The notes under the pieces: model-generated
What the model saw: only the letters and a program-made list of their open reading frames with translations
Databases searched by the model: none
Told to the model about the DNA's origin: nothing
Position numbers and translations under genes: made by a program
IMG/VR virus record: IMGVR_UViG_3300042691_015129
Coordinates: 1-20,183 of that record
Strand: one strand, 5' to 3'
DNA: 20,183 nucleotides
Source of the DNA: a virus
Shown here: positions 267 through 19,930 of the stretch, one piece after another
Layout of the letters: every line of letters starts with the position of its first letter
Numbering within the stretch: position 1 is the first letter of the stretch

Positions 267-1880
267 TTATTTATTGGGGGATGTTTTCATAATTGATGAA
301 TTAACATTTCTAGCAGTTACTGAACAACAACTACATCCTGTTATAGTCGATGATAACAATGTAAAGAAATCTAATGATTCTAAAACACACACATTACCAG
401 GTAATGTCTGATTAACTTGGATGTTCAATGTTCCAGTTATGATATCGGTTCCTGAAAAAGTTATTGTTGAATATGTTTTAGTTGTTGCGGTTGTGTATTT
501 TACAGGTTGTGTGGGACCACAAAGATTATTGGTCGGTGTTGTACTATTTGTTACCGTAGTTGTTGGGGTGATCCCTAAATTAACTCCATTTTTCTTTAAT
601 GAAATCACTGATGATACGGAGCCAGCACCTAATATTGTTGTGCCAAAACTATTATTGTGCGATAGGCTAAATGTTATTTGAGTACCGGTAGGTAATGATG
701 TGACTAAATTATTTAAACTGTCTCTTACTTCTAATGTGAAATTTAATGTCCGATTACTACTATTTGTTGTAATAATACTACTCGCAAAATTTAAACTATA
801 CGTAGTTTGAGGTTGTGCGGTCGGAACAACAACACTTTGAGTTATTATACTTGATGACGCATCTTGAACCCAAACACTATACGTTCCCGAATTTAAGTTA
901 GCAAATAAAGGACTTGATTGGGTTGTTAATCCGTTATTAATTGAATAAAGGATTGGTGGTTGAGCGTCAATGGTGTCAATAAATATAGAACCAGTGTTTG
1001 GTGTTTTTTCACATATTGGTCTCTGAATTGTAATGTTTTTAAAACTAAATTTTCTTGAACCGCAAGGTCCTGTAACCACAATTGCGGAAGCTCTTTGTCC
1101 TATTACGGTGTATGTTCCAAGTGGTGATGATGCGTTAGTGTTATAGAAGAAATTACTACCTATCGTTACTTGCCAAGATGGTTGTGGTGTTAAATTCCAC
1201 TGTAAGGTATATGTTGATGAGGACCAAGTTGGTTTACCGTTAACGTAATTTTGTGTAGGGTTAAAATTATACCCTGTTGTTACGTTGTCCTTAGTTAAAA
1301 AAAGACATAATAACTGTGAATTTACGGGTAACGGAGTTGGTGTTGGTGTTGGTGTTGTGGTCGGCGTAGGCGTTGGTAACGGTATTGAACATACTGTTGT
1401 CGCTGTAAAATCGGGACCACCGCTAGACCAATTATAATCTGTTACTGTTATCGTATAATTTTGACCTGGTGTCGCATTATTTAATACCGGTCCAACGAAT
1501 CCATTTGACCAAGATATTGTGTATGGTGGAGTTCCTCCCGACGCTGTAATTGTTATAGTTGATGTAGTAGAATCAGCACTACAACTTATTGATAATGGCG
1601 AAATTGTGATTACATCACACTCGCTAGTTGCCGTAACCCTAATACAAGGATATGTCTGATTACAAGTTTGACAATCAGAAAATTCTGTTAATGTTACTGA
1701 ATTTTGTAGATATGTTGGCGATCCTGGTAAAATCTTATCAGATGTTACAACTTCGGTACAACCTGTAAAATAATTAGGTATTTGAGCGTAATAAAAATCA
1801 CCAGTTAATGGTGATAAAAAATCAGTAATGATGAAAGTTGTGTTACTGTCACAACATGATTTAAAATAATAAGTTGCCAT
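267..1880 (-). CDS. Modular Cys-rich, SprB-like tail adhesin candidate, 537 aa
   Basis: Function is not known; the architecture suggests an exposed, multidomain tail or baseplate adhesin. Residues 4-79 are a Cys module with CC at 9-10, C41 and a C-x2-C-x5-C end at 70-79. Residues about 87-164 form an SprB-like beta domain (GGTPPYTISWSNG, then NYTITVTD). Residues 168-185 are a Thr-Pro linker (PTPTPTTTPTPTPTP). A second, shorter SprB-like domain follows at about 288-355 (PPILYSINNG, then LNSGTYSVWVQD). The C-terminal third is Ser/Thr/Asn-rich and predicted beta, and ends near a C-x-CC cluster (GCSCCS). There is no signal peptide or membrane helix, as expected for a virion protein. It follows the 245-residue gene after 15 nt that include the ATAAATA element. 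Module order and the first Cys module link it to that neighbour. The structural role is inferred. Confidence 0.8.
   Translation of the reverse strand: MATYYFKSCCDSNTTFIITDFLSPLTGDFYYAQIPNYFTGCTEVVTSDKILPGSPTYLQNSVTLTEFSDCQTCNQTYPCIRVTATSECDVITISPLSISCSADSTTSTITITASGGTPPYTISWSNGFVGPVLNNATPGQNYTITVTDYNWSSGGPDFTATTVCSIPLPTPTPTTTPTPTPTPLPVNSQLLCLFLTKDNVTTGYNFNPTQNYVNGKPTWSSSTYTLQWNLTPQPSWQVTIGSNFFYNTNASSPLGTYTVIGQRASAIVVTGPCGSRKFSFKNITIQRPICEKTPNTGSIFIDTIDAQPPILYSINNGLTTQSSPLFANLNSGTYSVWVQDASSSIITQSVVVPTAQPQTTYSLNFASSIITTNSSNRTLNFTLEVRDSLNNLVTSLPTGTQITFSLSHNNSFGTTILGAGSVSSVISLKKNGVNLGITPTTTVTNSTTPTNNLCGPTQPVKYTTATTKTYSTITFSGTDIITGTLNIQVNQTLPGNVCVLESLDFFTLLSSTITGCSCCSVTARNVNSSIMKTSPNK
1326..1379 (-). 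repeat. Thr-Pro linker encoded by GTTGGT tandem repeats
   Basis: The plus strand carries GTTGGT three times in perfect tandem from 1336 to 1353, followed by degenerate copies to about 1378. On the coding strand this gives ACC/CCA-type codons for alternating Thr and Pro. It encodes residues 168-185 of the 537-residue protein, between an SprB-like domain and the rest of the chain. Such linkers are extended and protease resistant, and they usually space surface domains apart. The 6-bp unit keeps the reading frame, so slippage would change linker length without breaking the gene. Confidence 0.8.
1644..1871 (-). repeat. Cys module C (residues 4-79 of the 537-aa protein)
   Basis: This is a compact domain starting YYFKSCC, with a middle FTGCTEVVTS and an end SDCQTCNQTYPC. 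The cysteines fall at 9, 10, 41, 70, 73 and 79. Spacing from CC to the central Cys and from there to the terminal pair is almost equal (31 and 29 residues). It matches module B of the preceding gene in the CC start, the GCT-x-V centre and the exact C-x2-C-x5-C ending. The cysteines could form disulfides or bind a metal; the sequence alone does not decide. Confidence 0.65.
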
Positions 1881-1888
1881 TGTATACG

Positions 1889-1895
1889 ATAAATA
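1889..1895 (-). promoter_or_regulatory. ATAAATA element before the 537-aa gene
   Basis: The plus strand reads ATAAATA, which is TATTTAT on the coding strand, 8 nt before the ATG at 1880 and directly after the stop of the previous gene. The same 7-mer occurs in three other intergenic gaps of this operon (8778, 17573, 19936). Here there is no clear inverted partner. It is a candidate phage promoter core or translation-related element. Confidence 0.4.
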
Positions 1896-2633
1896 TTAAC
1901 AAGTGTTTATTTCGGTACAATCATCACAACTTTTCATAATCGGAAACGGGTATAGGGTTGAATATTCGGTATTAGTTAAATCATTCCAATCGGTTTGGTC
2001 ATAATTATGTGTTGGAGTTTCGTAATTGCTGATTACTATTGTACATCCAGTGTAACCAGTACCGTCACCTAACCCTGATGGGGGTATATTAACATACCAA
2101 CTAATATTCGGTGTAAATCCTGATTGGAATTCGTTATTAAACTTAAAAGTGTAGTCATAACAACAAGCACTAAAATATGTCGGGGAGTTGTTGTTAAAAC
2201 ATTCTTGACAATTACCATACTCGTTCTCTATCGTTAATTCTTCGGAAGTATTAAATGTAAATTGATAACCTGAATAAACCCAACATTGTTCTAATTCTGA
2301 AAACGTAACTGATTCACCGATACTTAAATTGGGGTTATTTTCTATATAATGACAAATAGAATTATCACTACAATTACAAAAAGTGTGGAAAACATTACCG
2401 AAGTAAGAACAAACCACATTTTGGGTCTTTTCACAATTTGTTGTTGTTTGTATTATCTTCACAGTTAACGCAGGAGCTCCACTAAACACCGAGGGAATTG
2501 GATAAACTTTTATAGGTGAAATAGTATCTGTAACCGTCTCCATAAATTCACATGTAATACCTAAATAATCACATATATAAATTTCATAAGGTGGAGTTAA
2601 TCCTGTTACTTGTGATATGATAATATTTTCCAT
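1896..2633 (-). CDS. Cys-rich modular virion protein, 245 aa
   Basis: No named function. The protein holds 16 cysteines in 245 residues, arranged in three segments. Residues 1-75 are a beta-rich domain with PPYEIYICDYLGITC near the start and a C67/C75 pair at its end. Residues 84-146 are Cys module A (CNC at 86-88, C94, an EQCWVYSG centre, and NCQEC at 141-145). Residues 151-245 are Cys module B (YFSACC, YTGCTIV, and CDDCTEINTC as the very C-terminus). No signal peptide or membrane helix is visible. Its ATG directly abuts the stop of the SprB-repeat gene (TAAATG), so translation is probably coupled. It most likely works with the SprB-repeat and 537-residue proteins as an exposed tail component, but this rests on context and shared modules only. 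Confidence 0.78.
   Translation of the reverse strand: MENIIISQVTGLTPPYEIYICDYLGITCEFMETVTDTISPIKVYPIPSVFSGAPALTVKIIQTTTNCEKTQNVVCSYFGNVFHTFCNCSDNSICHYIENNPNLSIGESVTFSELEQCWVYSGYQFTFNTSEELTIENEYGNCQECFNNNSPTYFSACCYDYTFKFNNEFQSGFTPNISWYVNIPPSGLGDGTGYTGCTIVISNYETPTHNYDQTDWNDLTNTEYSTLYPFPIMKSCDDCTEINTC
1899..2183 (-). repeat. Cys module B (residues 151-245 of the 245-aa protein)
   Basis: The module begins YFSACCYDYTFKF, has YTGCTIVISN in the middle and ends SCDDCTEINTC. Cysteines are at 157, 158, 197, 236, 239 and 245, with equal 39-residue spacings between the CC pair, the central Cys and the terminal pair. It shares its CC start, its GCT-x-V centre and its C-x2-C-x5-C ending with module C at the start of the next gene, and its C-x2-C ending with module A just before it. 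Confidence 0.65.
2196..2384 (-). repeat. Cys module A (residues 84-146 of the 245-aa protein)
   Basis: This is the shortest and most divergent copy. It reads FCNCSDNSIC at the start, ELEQCWVYSGYQF in the centre and EYGNCQECFN at the end. The central Cys (117) is 23 residues after C94 and 25 residues before the terminal C-x2-C pair (142, 145). It lacks the CC doublet and the last Cys of modules B and C, but keeps the order of the other cysteines and the central C-x-V-x-S pattern. Confidence 0.5.
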
Positions 2634-4874
2634 TTAACAACTGACACAGTTTATATCATAAACAATTTTTAATTGTATTGTTAGATTTTGATTCGCCAAA
2701 GGTATTGTCGCATCCTCACAAGATGTATTAACCGTTATTGAGTTATTTTCAGAATCTAAAACTACATTACCGACACCTGTTGCCCCGCTAATTAAATCCG
2801 TAATAGTATCACCCCATAATTCTGTCGTTGGTACATCGGTCAATGTGTTAGCTGTGAAAAATGATATACTATAACCTGTTCCACCAACATTGGTAACCGC
2901 CGAAAAAATAGCACTACTCAATAAACAATCCGTACAACCAGACGTTAAATCTAAATAACCTTCTACCAACATTTTACCCAAAGATCTTTCAACTAAGTTA
3001 TTGGTCGTGGATAATTCTGATTCACAAATATTAAATAATACAGTCGTAGACACATTAAAAGTACCTTCTAAAACCACCGTATTAGTTAACGTACATCCAC
3101 TATTATCAGTTACAGTGAGTGAATACGTGCCGGCAGATAAATTACTTACAGTTGTTCCTGTCTGACCATTTACATTTGATGACCACGTTAGTGTAAACGG
3201 AGGTGCTCCCTCGTAAATATTTGCGTAAATTTGACCGTTAGAACCGTTGGTTGAATTTGTCGGTAATAATATAAAATTCACATTTTGACTACTGTTTATT
3301 GTTACATATTGTAACTCCTCGCAACCTGACTGGTCTTCTACTTTAACCGAATAGACACCACTTGATAAGTTGTTGAAGGTATATGAACTAGTCCCTGTGT
3401 TTGTTGCCGTCTGATTTCCTGTTCCGTCGTTTTTAACAATTGAATAAGTGTATAAACCTGTTCCTCCTGTTGTAACACTAATGTGTACAACTCCATTATC
3501 ATCACCACATGTGGTTCCTGTTACGAATGTAGTTGCCGTAAAACTAGATACTGAATTAACCGTGTAAACTTGTGAAAAAGTACAATTACCATCAGTTATT
3601 GTTAATAGATATTGTCCGGCTGTTAATTGTGTGAAATTAGATAACGTGGACCCTTGTTTACTAACAACAGAACCACTTTGACCTGATAAACTGTATGTAT
3701 ATGTTTTATTTCTATCACCAATTAATAAAATAGATAAAGCGCCGTTTGCGTTACCACAAGTTGCATTTTTAACATTAACCGAAGAGACACTAAAACTATC
3801 AGGTTGATTTAATTGTACCGTAACTTTTGTTTCACACAGGGCAGAATCTGTTACGATAATTTCATAATTACCACCTGGTAATCCACTAAATACATACGTT
3901 TGAGAATAACTAATATCAATAAAAGACCTTGATGGTATGTAATATCTGTATGGTGCCACACCATTTTTAACTGTAATGGTTATTTCACCGTTTTCATCAA
4001 AACATGTTGGTGGGGTGGGTGTTACAGAGGCGATGGTTACTGGTTCTATTTCCGTGACAATACCTGTTTTAGTTAATGTACAGTTTTGCGAATCCGTAAC
4101 TGTAACTGAATAAGCACCTTCCGTAAGTCCTGTAATCGAACTACCTGATAATATTTGCCCACTTTGAGGTAAATACTGTGGATTTGTTATCGATGACCAT
4201 AAATAAGTATATGGAGGGATTCCTGTTAAACCAGTTATGAATAATTTACCAACACCGCTATTAACATTACCGCAATCCGCGTCATTTACAATATATAAAC
4301 CGTAATCTAACTGAAAGGATGGTTCAACGATTACATTTTCACTTGATCCTGTACAACCACCACCATTATTTGCGTTAACGTAATAAATACCACTTGGTAA
4401 ATCGGTAAAAACATATGATGTTGTATCAGTAAAAGCGGTTCTATAACTTAAACCGTTCTGATATAAAATCATTGTGGCGGTTCCATTTATATTTTCCGTA
4501 GTAGCAGTTAATATACCATTATCTAAACCACATGTGGTTGATATGACACCATCAATATTAACACAGGAACTACCTGATGAAACTGTTATATTAATAGTTT
4601 CTCGGTTATTCTGAGTCGGATCACCAGGTGACCCACAAGAGTCATTAACTGTAAAAACATAAGTTCCCGCTGAGACATTTAAATATTCTCTCGGACCATT
4701 CATTACGTTAAGTTCAGTCGTGGGACCACCATATGGCGGCCATGGGTTTGGTTCAAACCAAGTGATACTCATTGGTTCTGATGTGGATGACAGATATAAA
4801 GTAAACCCACCAGAACCGTTATTTTGACAGTCACCTGTAACTGTAAATTGACTAAAACTATATGAACACGGCAT
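2634..4874 (-). CDS. SprB-repeat phage adhesin candidate, 746 aa
   Basis: This protein has seven tandem SprB-like repeats of about 80 residues (roughly 14-98, 103-184, 196-275, 279-357, 361-440, 444-527 and 531-602), then a different C-terminal domain (603-746). Each repeat follows a loose pattern: C-G/D-x-NG with a beta strand, then GxxPYTY or PPFTLTW, then L-x-x-G-x-Y-x-V-x-V-x-D and a Cys. Clear examples are GIPPYTYLWSS, NNLSSGVYSVKVEDQSGC and SNLSAGTYSLTVTDNSGC. SprB repeats are known from very large gliding and surface adhesins of Bacteroidota. In a phage baseplate operon they probably form a rod or fibre that displays a binding end, though the receptor is unknown. No signal peptide or membrane helix is seen. 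It starts 3 nt after the stop of the gpI-like gene and its stop abuts the next ATG. Confidence 0.82.
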   Translation of the reverse strand: MPCSYSFSQFTVTGDCQNNGSGGFTLYLSSTSEPMSITWFEPNPWPPYGGPTTELNVMNGPREYLNVSAGTYVFTVNDSCGSPGDPTQNNRETINITVSSGSSCVNIDGVISTTCGLDNGILTATTENINGTATMILYQNGLSYRTAFTDTTSYVFTDLPSGIYYVNANNGGGCTGSSENVIVEPSFQLDYGLYIVNDADCGNVNSGVGKLFITGLTGIPPYTYLWSSITNPQYLPQSGQILSGSSITGLTEGAYSVTVTDSQNCTLTKTGIVTEIEPVTIASVTPTPPTCFDENGEITITVKNGVAPYRYYIPSRSFIDISYSQTYVFSGLPGGNYEIIVTDSALCETKVTVQLNQPDSFSVSSVNVKNATCGNANGALSILLIGDRNKTYTYSLSGQSGSVVSKQGSTLSNFTQLTAGQYLLTITDGNCTFSQVYTVNSVSSFTATTFVTGTTCGDDNGVVHISVTTGGTGLYTYSIVKNDGTGNQTATNTGTSSYTFNNLSSGVYSVKVEDQSGCEELQYVTINSSQNVNFILLPTNSTNGSNGQIYANIYEGAPPFTLTWSSNVNGQTGTTVSNLSAGTYSLTVTDNSGCTLTNTVVLEGTFNVSTTVLFNICESELSTTNNLVERSLGKMLVEGYLDLTSGCTDCLLSSAIFSAVTNVGGTGYSISFFTANTLTDVPTTELWGDTITDLISGATGVGNVVLDSENNSITVNTSCEDATIPLANQNLTIQLKIVYDINCVSC
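3069..4835 (-). repeat. Array of seven SprB-like repeats
   Basis: This is a protein-level tandem array covering residues 14-602 of the 746-residue protein, with a period near 80 residues. The repeats are divergent: the conserved anchors are an early Cys, a PY/PPF turn, an L-x-x-G-x-Y strand, a V-x-D turn and a late Cys. No near-identical DNA copies are visible, so the array is old or has diversified rather than being recently expanded. The early and late cysteines recur in nearly every unit and could pair within the repeat. Confidence 0.75.
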
Positions 4875-4877
4875 TTA

Positions 4878-7856
4878 TTAAAAACAATTAATTGTGAAAT
4901 TTATACCTACGTTAATTTTAAATTCAGAATTTAAATTTAGATTATCGCAAGTTATTGTTGATATTGTAACGGTGTCCCCTGATATTGTGTAGTCTAAACC
5001 GTATAAAATTAAATCATCCAATTGTGACTCTAAGGCAGTTAACCATTGAGATTCAGTTGGGTAACTAATTTGAGGTATAGATAATCCGATACCATTAAAA
5101 AATGGGTAATTGAATATCGTATTACCAGATAAAGAAATGTTGACGTACCAAGTACTATTAATAGTATTAACATCACAATTTGGATTTTGCGTATAGTTAG
5201 ATACTACGTTGTTTAACACTCCACCGAATGAATTACCAACATTAGGGTTTGAGGTCCAAGGGTATATATCACAAGTAGTTTTAATTTCAGGACAATCGTA
5301 AGTTAATATTGGTCCCGAAACAGTACAAGGGTTACAAGGTATCGGTATAAGTTGACAACCTCTTTGTCTTCTCCATACAAATTTTTGCCTGTGGAATATT
5401 GAATTTTCAAAACGAACACCTGTGTTCCATATTGTGGTGGCAGGAACCATTTGTTCTACTAATCTAATCCAATAATCACCTAAACCTTGTACATAGTTTA
5501 TCATTTTTTGATAAGTAAATAAACTGTCAGGGATTTCCTCTAAATTAATAGATTTTAGATATTTCCAATAAACCGATTCTAGTGTTGGGTATCCACCTGT
5601 TTTACCGTTCGTAATGAATTGTCTGTCTCTAACATTGATCATATTTTGCCAAAATGTTTGAGCAAACTCAAAGAATGTCTTATCGGATGGATTTGGATCT
5701 ATTAATGTCTTATCTAAAATGGTTGGATTTAAATACGTCGGGCAGTAACAATTACCGCTTATAGTATATCCCGTTGAAGGTATTGGGTAATTATAATTGT
5801 TTGATAAGAACCAAACGTCGTATGTGATACCTTGGGCCGGATTTAAGAACAAATCTATATTTTTAACATTTAGAATTAATCTCTCATCATCAACAAAATA
5901 AAACGAGTTGTTACCGTCGGAATTTCTTCTAAGACCTGTTTGGTTATCAACCCAACTTTTTTTATTATCAATGGTTTTATTAAGTGAAAATCCTAAATTC
6001 GTATATGGAAAATCCACATATCTGTTAAGGTATTTTTGACCGTATGTAAAATTTTCTAAAACAGTTTGTATGTTAGGATTTTGACCTGTAAAGGTACTTG
6101 AAGTCGCATCGAATATTTCGTTAGACCTATGTTTTGGTGTTTGTTCAAACCACCCCGCACCTATTTGGAAATAGTAACTGTCGGTTGATTCAGGCATTTT
6201 TGGGTAACCGTTTTCATCGACTGGGAAGTCGTCTCTACCTAAACTAACATCTTCAATTGTTGTTTGAGTGGTAAATCCCGTGAATTCTCTACCTAATATT
6301 CTGAATGTATTTGTTGGTTCTAACACCGGTAATTCAATAGCGTATGTACCACCTGATATCTGAGCAAATTCAGAATCAAATTGAGACATATTAATTTTTT
6401 GGTCCGCAACATAAATGTATTCATTAAAATCAACTAACGCTTCGGGAGCCCCAATTAATCTTAATAAATTTTCAATAGAACCTCTGGTTCCTTTTGATTT
6501 AAATAAATGAGCAGAATTTAATATTAAGTTCCTATAAAATTGATAACTGATTTCATCAGGTGTTGATGATACCGGAACTCCTTGGAATTGACTTGGTGTG
6601 TCGTTGTTAAATACTGAATCTAAAAAATTTTCGTTAGTTATTGGTGATATGTTTTCCGACCAACCTAATGTTTGAGATAGATTTTTTAACAATTGTGATG
6701 GTATATCGTTAGTGACGTTATAATTTACCGAATTCATGTACGCTAACGCTTCGGCAAATGTCCTGACTTGGTCAAAACTCCTACCGTATATTTCCAACAA
6801 TTTTGTTATTTTTTGATCGTCCGTATCAAAATCTTTAAACGCCCCTGTGGTTAAGAACCTAACGATTAATTTTGTTTTAAATTCATCTAGATTTTCGGCG
6901 AAAACATTAAGTTTTTCTAGATAATCTGTAAACCTTGGGGTGATAATATCAATATTCCATTTACCGTATGTCGGCCATGTTATCGACTCTTGTGTCACGT
7001 ATGATTTACCGTCATCGGTCTCTTTAAATACCGTAAATTTAGCAGTATATATTGGACTCACTTTTCGGTTCAATAAAAACTTTTCAACATCATCAAAACT
7101 TTCATTAAAAGTCATTTCAGTGGTCATAGGATCTAATTTGAATAATAAATCATCATAGACCTCAGTATTACCTGAAAATGGATTTCCCTTAACGTACAGT
7201 TTAAGGGTCCCACTCGTTATGGACGTTGTTGGGGTTAAGAAAGTAACTTTATACGTTTTACCACTTAGTTCTAAATTATATTTAGAATAATTAGTGGTCA
7301 TATCCCTAAGTGGGGATATCTCGATTTCACTTAATTGTAAATTTCTACTTGCGTTTTCGGTAAAATCTATCGCAAATGGATTCAGTATTCTTGAAACGTC
7401 TATCTCCATATACGTTTCATCGTTAGATGAATTATAGGAAATGTTATTAGCGGTAGAACCTGTCGAATAATTGGGTCCTAAAAAAGGAACATCAAAACCA
7501 GCAGGGAAATAATTAATGATTTTGGTAATAGATACTGATAATCTCTTAACCAAAGAACCGTATTGGGAAAAACTAGTAACATTACTTAAATCAAAATTAG
7601 GGTAAACCTTAAAATTCTTTTCAATTATAGCCTTAGATTCTTCAATATTTTTAATACCCATAGAATCTAAGGTAATCGGGTCCGAAAAGGTTCCAATTAT
7701 GAATTCTCTATTTGACTTTTCAGTGATAGATGTCGTGAATTCAAAATTACCTTGTGTCAAACCACCCCCATCTACAATTTGAAAACCTACTAAGTTATCT
7801 GAGAATGTATTATCGGCGGTAGCCTGTTGCGGTGGACAAGTATATTTTTTAGCCAT
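4878..7856 (-). CDS. Baseplate wedge protein with gpI-like tail segment, 992 aa
   Basis: This is probably the wedge component that joins gp6-like arms to peripheral baseplate parts, equivalent to T4 gp7 or the Afp12/gpI-type proteins. The key evidence is a helical stretch at about residues 315-475: EFKTKLIVRFLTTGAFKDFD, then YGRSFDQVRTFAEALAYMN, then HLFKSKGTRGSIENLLRLIG at 450-469. The K-GTR-x-x-I-x-x-LL-x-L-x-G motif is typical of phage tail protein I and the related contractile-injection tail domain. Residues 1-310 are predicted beta. Near residue 832 comes a Cys-rich joint (RGCQLIPIPCNPC), followed by a C-terminal beta domain ending GINFTINCF. The start overlaps the previous stop by one base (TAATG). 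Assignment as gp7-like rests on this motif plus synteny with gp25 and gp6; full-length homology is not shown. Confidence 0.8.
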   Translation of the reverse strand: MAKKYTCPPQQATADNTFSDNLVGFQIVDGGGLTQGNFEFTTSITEKSNREFIIGTFSDPITLDSMGIKNIEESKAIIEKNFKVYPNFDLSNVTSFSQYGSLVKRLSVSITKIINYFPAGFDVPFLGPNYSTGSTANNISYNSSNDETYMEIDVSRILNPFAIDFTENASRNLQLSEIEISPLRDMTTNYSKYNLELSGKTYKVTFLTPTTSITSGTLKLYVKGNPFSGNTEVYDDLLFKLDPMTTEMTFNESFDDVEKFLLNRKVSPIYTAKFTVFKETDDGKSYVTQESITWPTYGKWNIDIITPRFTDYLEKLNVFAENLDEFKTKLIVRFLTTGAFKDFDTDDQKITKLLEIYGRSFDQVRTFAEALAYMNSVNYNVTNDIPSQLLKNLSQTLGWSENISPITNENFLDSVFNNDTPSQFQGVPVSSTPDEISYQFYRNLILNSAHLFKSKGTRGSIENLLRLIGAPEALVDFNEYIYVADQKINMSQFDSEFAQISGGTYAIELPVLEPTNTFRILGREFTGFTTQTTIEDVSLGRDDFPVDENGYPKMPESTDSYYFQIGAGWFEQTPKHRSNEIFDATSSTFTGQNPNIQTVLENFTYGQKYLNRYVDFPYTNLGFSLNKTIDNKKSWVDNQTGLRRNSDGNNSFYFVDDERLILNVKNIDLFLNPAQGITYDVWFLSNNYNYPIPSTGYTISGNCYCPTYLNPTILDKTLIDPNPSDKTFFEFAQTFWQNMINVRDRQFITNGKTGGYPTLESVYWKYLKSINLEEIPDSLFTYQKMINYVQGLGDYWIRLVEQMVPATTIWNTGVRFENSIFHRQKFVWRRQRGCQLIPIPCNPCTVSGPILTYDCPEIKTTCDIYPWTSNPNVGNSFGGVLNNVVSNYTQNPNCDVNTINSTWYVNISLSGNTIFNYPFFNGIGLSIPQISYPTESQWLTALESQLDDLILYGLDYTISGDTVTISTITCDNLNLNSEFKINVGINFTINCF

Positions 7857-17603: not shown

Positions 17604-17634
17604 AATTGATTAAGGATAAAAATAAATTGATTAA
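17604..17634 (-). repeat. 10-bp direct repeat spaced 21 bp, end of the gp6-like gene
   Basis: AATTGATTAA occurs at 17604-17613 and again at 17625-17634 on the plus strand; the coding strand reads TTAATCAATT. Each coding-strand copy is followed by a T-rich run (ATTTTT). The 21-bp period is two DNA helical turns, so a protein could bind both copies on one face. The second copy overlaps the stop codon of the gp6-like gene. Function is unknown: operator, upstream activator site or chance in AT-rich DNA are all possible. No GC-rich terminator hairpin is present. Confidence 0.4.
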
Positions 17635-19469
17635 CTAAAGTTAACGGTTTTGAGATTTTTAACTCTAACACTTACGTCTTGACCCGGAAATCTGACTTGA
17701 TATATTTGTGTTGGTTCGGCAAAAATAGTATCGTCAATTAACTCAATTTGTTTAGTTTCTGAGTTGGAATATCTCTGAGAAGTTTGAGATGACGAGTATT
17801 GACCACCGACTAAGTTAAACACATCTATTTGTGCAATAGTTAATACACCATTAAGATTTTGTATCTGTCTTTTTATTTCAGACACATAAACATTCTCACC
17901 CATACCTCTATTATTTGGTGAGAAATAATTAGATATTATATCAACAATTTGAGTTATTATAGTTCCTTGATTCTGACTTGAATCTAAAACAACATAAATG
18001 TCAAATTTTAAGTCGATAACTTGGGCACTTTCAACAACGACATAATCATTAATCATTCTGTAATTAGATAGGTAATTTGCTATATTACTCTTTAATGTGT
18101 TTGAAATAACATTTGTTAATTTCCCTGTTGAATCATAACTAAGACATTGAATTTTAATTTTATTGTCTTGTTCGGTTATCGCAACCTTTGCCGGTGCTCC
18201 AAATTGAGACGGCATATTGCGAATAAGTGATTCATAATCGTTAATTGTTACCGCTCTTTTTTGAGCCGCAAAATTATATGTCACAAAATTTCTAACCTCT
18301 TCCAATGATGGTACATTAGCACCACCAATTGCCGCCGTTGTGTTGGTACAGCTTAAAGAATTAATAACCGAAGTATTCTGTGTTTGTGATGGACCATTAA
18401 CTTGGAAATTGATAGTTCCTAATTGATTAATTACATTAACCCCCAAATTAGACGATACTCCACCTCCGATTCGATATTGAATAAATAAGGTTGAGTTTGC
18501 TTTTAATGTACTACCTAAGGCGAAGTTATTGGAATATTTTTGTAAATTAAGTGGGTTACCAGTCGCAGCAAATTCTCTTAATTGTTCATCGGCAGATTGA
18601 CTACCACCACCAAATATCATTTTAAAAAAACCTTCGGGTGTAAATTCGGTAATAAACTTGTTACTTGTTGATATGTATTTACCAACTTTAATACCTGGCC
18701 TATCACTAACTTTGGTGCTATCCTCAATAAAAACTTTATCTTGAATTAACGCATCTACTTCATACCATTTATTATTGGTTCCTAAGAACTCTTGGTCCGA
18801 TGGTACGTTCGCGTATTCGGTTCCATCTTTTAACAAAACACTAGTTACACCTAATACGTTTTTTTCAGGTAAAAAAAGTTCAAAAAATGGTACAACATCA
18901 TTTGGTAAAATACTTCTTTTAAAAACTTTTGTAACACCATTAACAACAGTTTCTCTTTTAGTAATTGTGTAATTTAATATTTTACCATTAGCGTCAAAAT
19001 TGGGTACTTTTGTTCTATTCGGGAAACCTTCATTATTAAACGGTGATGAAAAATCTATATCGTATACTGTTTCAAATATTTGACCCGCACCGATACACTG
19101 AGAACCTCTTCTCAGTATACCGCAATACCTCAAATCCTCGTTATCTCCGAAAACGGGTACTGTAATTGAAAAATCGATTGAAGCCACCGAAGGTCTCTGA
19201 CCCGGTATTTTTAACCCGTATGTCCTTGCGATATTATAGATTGAAGACCTTTGTTGTGCGTACTGTAATACGGTTTCCTGAATACTTCTATCAATATTAA
19301 ATTGTAGGTTATCTGATACCGCAGCGTTTAGGTCCAATAATACCGAAAATACCGAAGCGTCGTTAACGTTACTAAGTAAATCGGGGTAGTAAGTTCTTAC
19401 AAAATTAATTAATTCAGTTCTTATTGATTGGAAATCCCTAACCGTATAAGATATTTTTTTATTCGCCAT
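17631..19469 (-). CDS. Baseplate wedge protein gp6-like (baseplate J family), 612 aa
   Basis: Forms the core of the baseplate wedge: in T4, gp6 dimers make the ring that surrounds the central hub. The N-terminus (YTVRDFQSIRTELINFVRTY, then a DASVFSVLLDLNAAVSDNLQ helix) is typical of gp6/J proteins that begin with a helical region. The family hallmark is at about 385-425, where NFVTYNFAAQKRAVTINDYE precedes SLIRNMPSQFG; D411-Y412 mark the conserved turn. The C-terminal part has the alternating helix and strand pattern of J proteins (about residues 425-560) and ends in a short beta tail. Length is close to T4 gp6 (660). It starts 5 nt after the gp25-like stop, the usual gp25-gp6 order in many contractile phages. 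No Shine-Dalgarno sequence is present. Confidence 0.9.
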   Translation of the reverse strand: MANKKISYTVRDFQSIRTELINFVRTYYPDLLSNVNDASVFSVLLDLNAAVSDNLQFNIDRSIQETVLQYAQQRSSIYNIARTYGLKIPGQRPSVASIDFSITVPVFGDNEDLRYCGILRRGSQCIGAGQIFETVYDIDFSSPFNNEGFPNRTKVPNFDANGKILNYTITKRETVVNGVTKVFKRSILPNDVVPFFELFLPEKNVLGVTSVLLKDGTEYANVPSDQEFLGTNNKWYEVDALIQDKVFIEDSTKVSDRPGIKVGKYISTSNKFITEFTPEGFFKMIFGGGSQSADEQLREFAATGNPLNLQKYSNNFALGSTLKANSTLFIQYRIGGGVSSNLGVNVINQLGTINFQVNGPSQTQNTSVINSLSCTNTTAAIGGANVPSLEEVRNFVTYNFAAQKRAVTINDYESLIRNMPSQFGAPAKVAITEQDNKIKIQCLSYDSTGKLTNVISNTLKSNIANYLSNYRMINDYVVVESAQVIDLKFDIYVVLDSSQNQGTIITQIVDIISNYFSPNNRGMGENVYVSEIKRQIQNLNGVLTIAQIDVFNLVGGQYSSSQTSQRYSNSETKQIELIDDTIFAEPTQIYQVRFPGQDVSVRVKNLKTVNFS

Positions 19470-19474
19470 ATATT

Positions 19475-19930
19475 TTAAATATTAATAATTACAAAATCGC
19501 TAGATTGAAAAGCGTTTGATGTGACTATATAATCAATTCTCACTTTCGCGGTATGTTCTTTTGTACCAATCCCTGGTACTCTATAAACTCTATCGTCACC
19601 TGTTGCGGTAACCGTTACTGTTTCATCTTCTGTTGACGCATCATACACTCTTATTTTAGTAATCTTTAAGTTTGGTATATATTTTTTAACAGAGTCCGTT
19701 ATCTCGGCCTCAATATCCGCAAATGACGGACCATCCAACGGTTCAAAAATGTATTCTAAAAGTCTAGTTCCAAAATCGGGTAAGAAATATCTCGTTCCCT
19801 TTCTTGTTAATAATAGATGAATTAAATCAGTTCTAATCTCCTCATCTGGTGTGTCAGATAAATCTAAATACTTACCATCAAAAGAATCTCTAAATGGAAA
19901 ATTTATTCCGTATGTTATTCCGTTTGCCAT
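19475..19930 (-). CDS. Baseplate wedge protein gp25-like, 151 aa
   Basis: This is the small wedge subunit of the GPW/gp25 family. In contractile tails it contacts the first sheath disc and the gp6 core, and nucleates sheath assembly. The diagnostic segment is residues 42-64, LLTRKGTRYFLPDFGTRLLE followed by YIFEP: the R-K-G, P-D-F-G and F-E-P residues are the family signature. The C-terminus has the expected alternating strands (LKITKIRVYD, ETVTVTATG, KVRIDYIV). Length is in the normal range (T4 gp25 is 132). The upstream gap of 14 nt holds the 7-bp inverted repeat, with TATTTAT 5 nt before the ATG. The family assignment is secure; whether the particle is a phage or another contractile machine is decided by the wider context, which favours a phage. 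Confidence 0.95.
   Translation of the reverse strand: MANGITYGINFPFRDSFDGKYLDLSDTPDEEIRTDLIHLLLTRKGTRYFLPDFGTRLLEYIFEPLDGPSFADIEAEITDSVKKYIPNLKITKIRVYDASTEDETVTVTATGDDRVYRVPGIGTKEHTAKVRIDYIVTSNAFQSSDFVIINI

Follow-up and report, generated by a model that had tools for sequence, protein, structure and literature searches.

Three copies (A, B and C) of a small cysteine-bearing module lie in two adjacent genes of the window, which is the whole 20,183-base stretch analysed (IMG/VR virus record IMGVR_UViG_3300042691_015129, a single virus record). Profile comparisons identify them as anciently diverged copies of one homologous module, and very probably they represent a single family with a beta fold ending in a helix that opens with CxxC. 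As a whole, the module is best explained, we consider, as a bead stabilised by its cysteines that can be transplanted among the adhesion proteins of phages. The preliminary description of this DNA had proposed three module copies in two neighbouring genes, and this holds: the homology is significant and the cysteines are kept in nine genomes.

Every long gene of the window is encoded on the minus strand, in an operon containing gp25-like and gp6/Baseplate_J wedge proteins, several large uncharacterised proteins, an SprB-repeat protein, and the two module-bearing proteins, P245 and P537. The features referred to below are as follows.
267..1880, minus strand: gene for P537, with module C, an SprB repeat, a Pro/Thr linker (about aa 166-184) and further domains.
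1644..1871, minus strand: module C, aa 4-79 of P537, with cysteines C9/C10 - C41 - C70/C73/C79.
1896..2633, minus strand: gene for P245, with an N-terminal FN3/Ig-like beta domain followed by modules A and B.
1899..2180, minus strand: module B, aa 152-245 of P245, with cysteines C157/C158 - C197 - C236/C239/C245.
2187..2381, minus strand: module A, aa 85-149 of P245, with cysteines C86, C88, C94 - C117 - C142/C145.
2394..2633, minus strand: N-terminal domain of P245, aa 1-80, a small domain that is free-standing elsewhere.
2634..4874, minus strand: SprB-repeat protein (746 aa), whose homologues elsewhere bear modules N-terminally.
4878..7856, minus strand: conserved tail-region protein (992 aa), the query used for finding relatives.
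17631..19469, minus strand: baseplate wedge protein (Baseplate_J / gp6-like).
19475..19930, minus strand: baseplate wedge gp25-like protein.

This baseplate and tail operon, with its gp25, gp6 and SprB genes, agrees with the earlier assignment of the modules to virion genes, and it is quite probable that those of P245 and P537 are located in the virion tail. The SprB repeat domain is known from the Bacteroidota gliding adhesin. Several such repeats occur in the tail-region protein at 2634-4874, the Pfam model (PF13573) matches P537 at aa 102-127, after module C, and 78 ORFs of related contigs match the repeat as well. A search with the 992-aa neighbour protein retrieved 80 related IMG/VR loci.

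Modules B and C share a CC start, a GCT-x-V centre and an exact C-x2-C-x5-C ending, at precisely the positions originally reported. B is a long variant, and its last cysteine is the final residue of P245. Module A has a CxC start, a central CW (C117) and the CxxC, and has neither the CC start nor the trailing cysteine; these two traits are usual but not universal in the family, and A is in this respect like a minority of its members. All three copies keep the order of first cysteine group, central cysteine and CxxC. The preliminary description had also pictured a module expanding symmetrically around its central cysteine. The gap values it listed are exact (39/39 in B, 31/29 in C and 23/25 in A), but near-equality of the two gaps (within two residues) was found in 41.6% of 125 modules versus 39.8% in shuffles, and over the same 125 modules the two lengths correlate only weakly (r 0.38). 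Symmetric expansion was therefore rejected as a family property, near-equality being at the shuffled level; the three symmetric gap pairs of A, B and C are a coincidence.

Relatives had been suspected in uncultured phages, and a profile search of IMG/VR contigs did find them: 284 modules in 117 proteins, with 1-10 per protein, a count in which overlapping loci of one contig are included more than once. The first HMM iteration drifted to SprB-like segments, and later searches were filtered on coverage and CxxC. When IMG/VR was scanned with a gapped DNA pattern describing the module, 77 stretches matched, and 69 of these proved to be modules in frame; in the full set of 80 scanned loci the number was 72, three of these 72 having come from another search. 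The same pattern gave 17 matches in 257 Gb of prokaryote genomes, none in frame, and the module profile, which does find modules in viral records, found none in 395 genomes of the phylum Bacteroidota; the absence from cells holds for these cellular genomes. When the modules and multi-module proteins were compared by tblastn with 50,697 phage records, no module was detected, one query matching in its SprB part only. Nor did the module occur in the whole records of the annotated phages nearest by baseplate protein (Flavobacterium phage immuto, Microcystis phage Mel-JY01 and two uncultured giants).

That no named domain shows this pattern was also confirmed in the libraries searched. Across 88 modules, none of the models in Pfam, PHROG or NCBIfam came up repeatedly, PDB sequences gave no match to the modules, and the PF13573, BACON and Ig-like Pfam models gave none over the module. 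PHROG 15511 overlaps the module arrays of L141 and L145, but among the families listed it is matched by no single module. No description of the module was found in the literature searched. As far as these libraries and this literature show, the domain family is unnamed, repeated domains of tail proteins being already known as such.

Arrays of modules often end collagen-like fibres or adjoin SprB repeats and Pro/Thr linkers. In L115, 2031 residues of G-x-y are followed by six modules up to the C-terminus, with similar arrangements in L098, L123 and L088; L115 and L123 are called tail fibre by PHROG. The collagen-like (G-x-y) fibres at L115:4255-12858 and L098:3-8939 are 2000-2500 residues long and have three to six modules as a cap. 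An extreme expansion is seen in the 60-kb contig L145 (IMGVR_UViG_3300040815_002799), where three very long open frames contain 19 matches to the profile.

Module C was predicted by AlphaFold2 with a pLDDT of 95.1 and a pTM of 0.84, as strands at residues 2-8, 15-21, 29-34, 38-45, 56-58 and 63-67 followed by a helix (70-76) that opens with the CxxC. For P245, the input was restricted to its own orthologues and to homologues of its N-terminus, without the module alignment. In the resulting AlphaFold2 model, module A (pLDDT about 80) has predicted strands at 81-87, 94-97, 108-111, 117-125 and 135-139, and a helix at 142-149 that again opens with the CxxC, whereas module B is at pLDDT <50, so the fold of B rests on homology to C. 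Structure prediction, the check proposed at the outset, thus gave the same order of elements for A and C in separate predictions, with B at low confidence. Comparison of module C with PDB structures returned weak matches (Foldseek best E 2.7; VIA best Z 2.7 over 64 residues, rmsd 3.7), with no relative hinting at a ligand; in BFVD, the best viral-model matches by Foldseek were A0A6J5L4L9 and A0A6J5LDA4. By VIA-align (Z about 5-6), the N-terminal domain of P245 looks FN3/Ig-like. Its middling VIA matches include Bacteroidota T9SS C-terminal domains (mirolase, RemA), at a level too low to build on.

Four cysteines (the first C, the central C and those of the CxxC) are near-invariant, the invariance of the CxxC being partly imposed by the inclusion rule, and the module surfaces are very variable. 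In most modules there are six cysteines, all in register, which favours three disulfides, and disulfides are, on balance, the more probable chemistry when set against bound metal. Where the CC pair is missing, the trailing C is mostly missing too (Fisher p 4e-7, though from only about five independent events); this joint loss suggests that the second C of the CC would pair with the trailing C. The first C, central C and CxxC would pin the module core. It is conceivable, though somewhat unlikely, that the module is instead a zinc-like metal-binding domain, in which one metal is held by the first C, the central C and the CxxC, leaving the other two cysteines spare or joined as a disulfide. The four near-invariant cysteines, with a CxxC at the start of a helix, would fit such a site, as would the few modules having four cysteines only, and phage assembly takes place in a reducing cytoplasm. 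Against this, the six cysteines in register are an even number fitting three disulfides, and disulfides do occur in contractile tails, as in phage Milano (PMC10811340).

In the preferred reading, uncultured tailed phages would use this cysteine-pinned beta module of ~65-95 residues as an exchangeable bead of proteins that resemble tail fibres and adhesins. Exposed at the tail, the beads would help the phage to adhere to the host surface or to bind a receptor there, and their gain or loss by phages could alter binding targets. Judged from its position only, the module probably helps the virus to hold on to its host; an adhesion or receptor-binding role as such is given slightly better than an even chance. 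The modules might, on the other hand, be passive spacers or rigid beads that lengthen or stiffen tail fibres, with specificity residing elsewhere. Tandem arrays of variable number, near-invariant cysteines under very variable surfaces, and the 19 matches within one phage are all in keeping with spacers, yet we consider them the unlikely alternative: many proteins have a single copy, which would make a poor spacer. Moreover, the binding tips of fibres are usually at the extreme C-terminus, where arrays are often found (in 26 of 73 proteins the last module lies <=5% of the length from the C-terminus). The broader proposal that this is a phage-specific fold, unseen in solved structures, shuffled among uncultured phages (including those of 270-310 kb contigs) and acting as their main exchangeable host-binding bead, is put forward tentatively, as a possibility that we do not expect to hold in full. 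Since SprB repeats are present and a baseplate relative belongs to a Flavobacterium phage, a Bacteroidota host is likely.

Modular repeats at phage tails determine which cells a phage can hold, and this family is common in environmental phages. As it is absent from the domain libraries searched, fibres bearing it are read as 'hypothetical'. A module profile would aid fibre annotation, flag likely host-contact proteins in metagenomes, and give structural and binding studies a defined target.

The relationship among the three copies of the window was assessed with hhalign. B and C match each other directly (96.7%, E 3.9e-10), and still do with all cysteines masked (85.7%, E 5.5e-6). Against a family profile of 165 modules from other phages, from which the window's own clade had been removed, the values were 97.9% for C (E 4.6e-13), 94.8% for A (E 4.9e-8, score 35.6) and 68.5% for B (E 4.6e-5). 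Column-reversed control profiles did not match these 165 modules, and 40 column shuffles of A with the cysteines fixed reached a maximum score of 15.8, compared with 35.6 for the real profile. The A profile gave no match to B or C alone; these profiles are shallow, so the wider family is required for A to be matched. These misses, together with A's want of a CC and a trailing cysteine, are what could be said for A being a chance cysteine pattern and only B and C being related. This is very improbable, given the order-specific signal against a wide family lacking window-clade modules, the in-register match to A of a seed profile built without it, and the separate model of A, with the same element order and its cysteines at the same places. 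A is taken below as a true copy.

In a tree of 73 modules (few columns, with many forks open), A, B and C each form one clade. B and C lie within a larger clade with support (95/82) that also takes in modules of other phages, including one from a 308-kb contig, and A groups elsewhere. Because the clade of B and C is mixed with modules of other phages, the tree points to old members arriving in the operon and not to a fresh local duplication; on this phylogeny, A, B and C are old family members that came to the operon, not recent duplicates.

Eight relatives have both genes complete and, with the window, make up nine genomes keeping A, B and C, in all of which the cysteines and the gene split are conserved. 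The identities of B and C to L002-L009 are similar to those of the adjoining segments. Among the 80 relatives, modules are present in 27, at several gene positions, while none was detected in the other 53, some of which are contigs that end early. The modules sit at the C-terminus of P245 and the N-terminus of P537 in the window's group, at the N-terminus of an SprB protein in L020, L045, L067, L073 and L078, inside an SprB protein in L015 and L016, and within an 814-aa or 1112-aa protein in L017 and L015. These differing positions suggest that the modules are mobile and optional, moving between genes. Many relatives that lack A and B encode the N-terminal domain of P245 in the same place as an independent protein of 99-122 aa, so A and B look like additions to a small core protein. 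L006, L010 and L014 also have minus-strand copies of this small domain, 76-79 aa in length. In L017 and L018 a minus-strand protein of 636 aa (20770-22680) starts with it and continues with leucine-rich-repeat-like sequence.

The preliminary description had likened the B|C boundary to modules shuffled across a gene border. Mobility between genes agrees with this; a fresh split at that boundary does not stand, as B and C are monophyletic, long-diverged lineages and the split is kept in nine genomes. That the boundary is a split or read-through gene is hardly credible: P245 and P537 share a reading frame in the window, where one TAA and five codons (1881-1898) lie between them, as they do in L002, but in L004, L009 and L010 the two starts lie in different frames, the spacing varies among relatives by up to some 265 nt (from coordinates), and each gene retains its own start.

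Several known systems resemble parts of this arrangement. BACON tandem repeats are associated with tail proteins of crAss-like phages, with horizontal transfer and duplication of single domains and a proposed function in host binding (PMC6949934). Both BACON and the module are small beta domains occurring as tandem repeats linked with phage tail proteins; BACON, however, is a named domain also present in bacteria, whereas the module is cysteine-pinned, has no Pfam match and is not in the cellular genomes searched. The repeat of SprB, a surface adhesin of Bacteroidota (PMC12635249), occurs in the same proteins as the module, often adjoining it, but in P537 and the 746-aa protein PF13573 covers only the segment after module C and the repeats of the latter, not the module. 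The proteins A0A6J5L4L9 and A0A6J5LDA4 of uncultured Caudovirales phage resemble module C with Foldseek probabilities of 1.00 and 0.94 (30-31% identity; E 1.7e-3 and 5.2e-2); they are uncharacterised and the module is unnamed there, A0A6J5LDA4 being annotated 'SprB repeat'. Phage Ig-like and FN3 decorations are likewise repeated beta domains of tail and head proteins, comparable with the N-terminal domain of P245, but the module differs in its C-terminal CxxC helix and in having no Pfam Ig-like match. Finally, phage Milano, in which disulfides crosslink the whole contractile tail, sheath subunits included, provides a precedent for disulfides throughout such a structure (PMC10811340).
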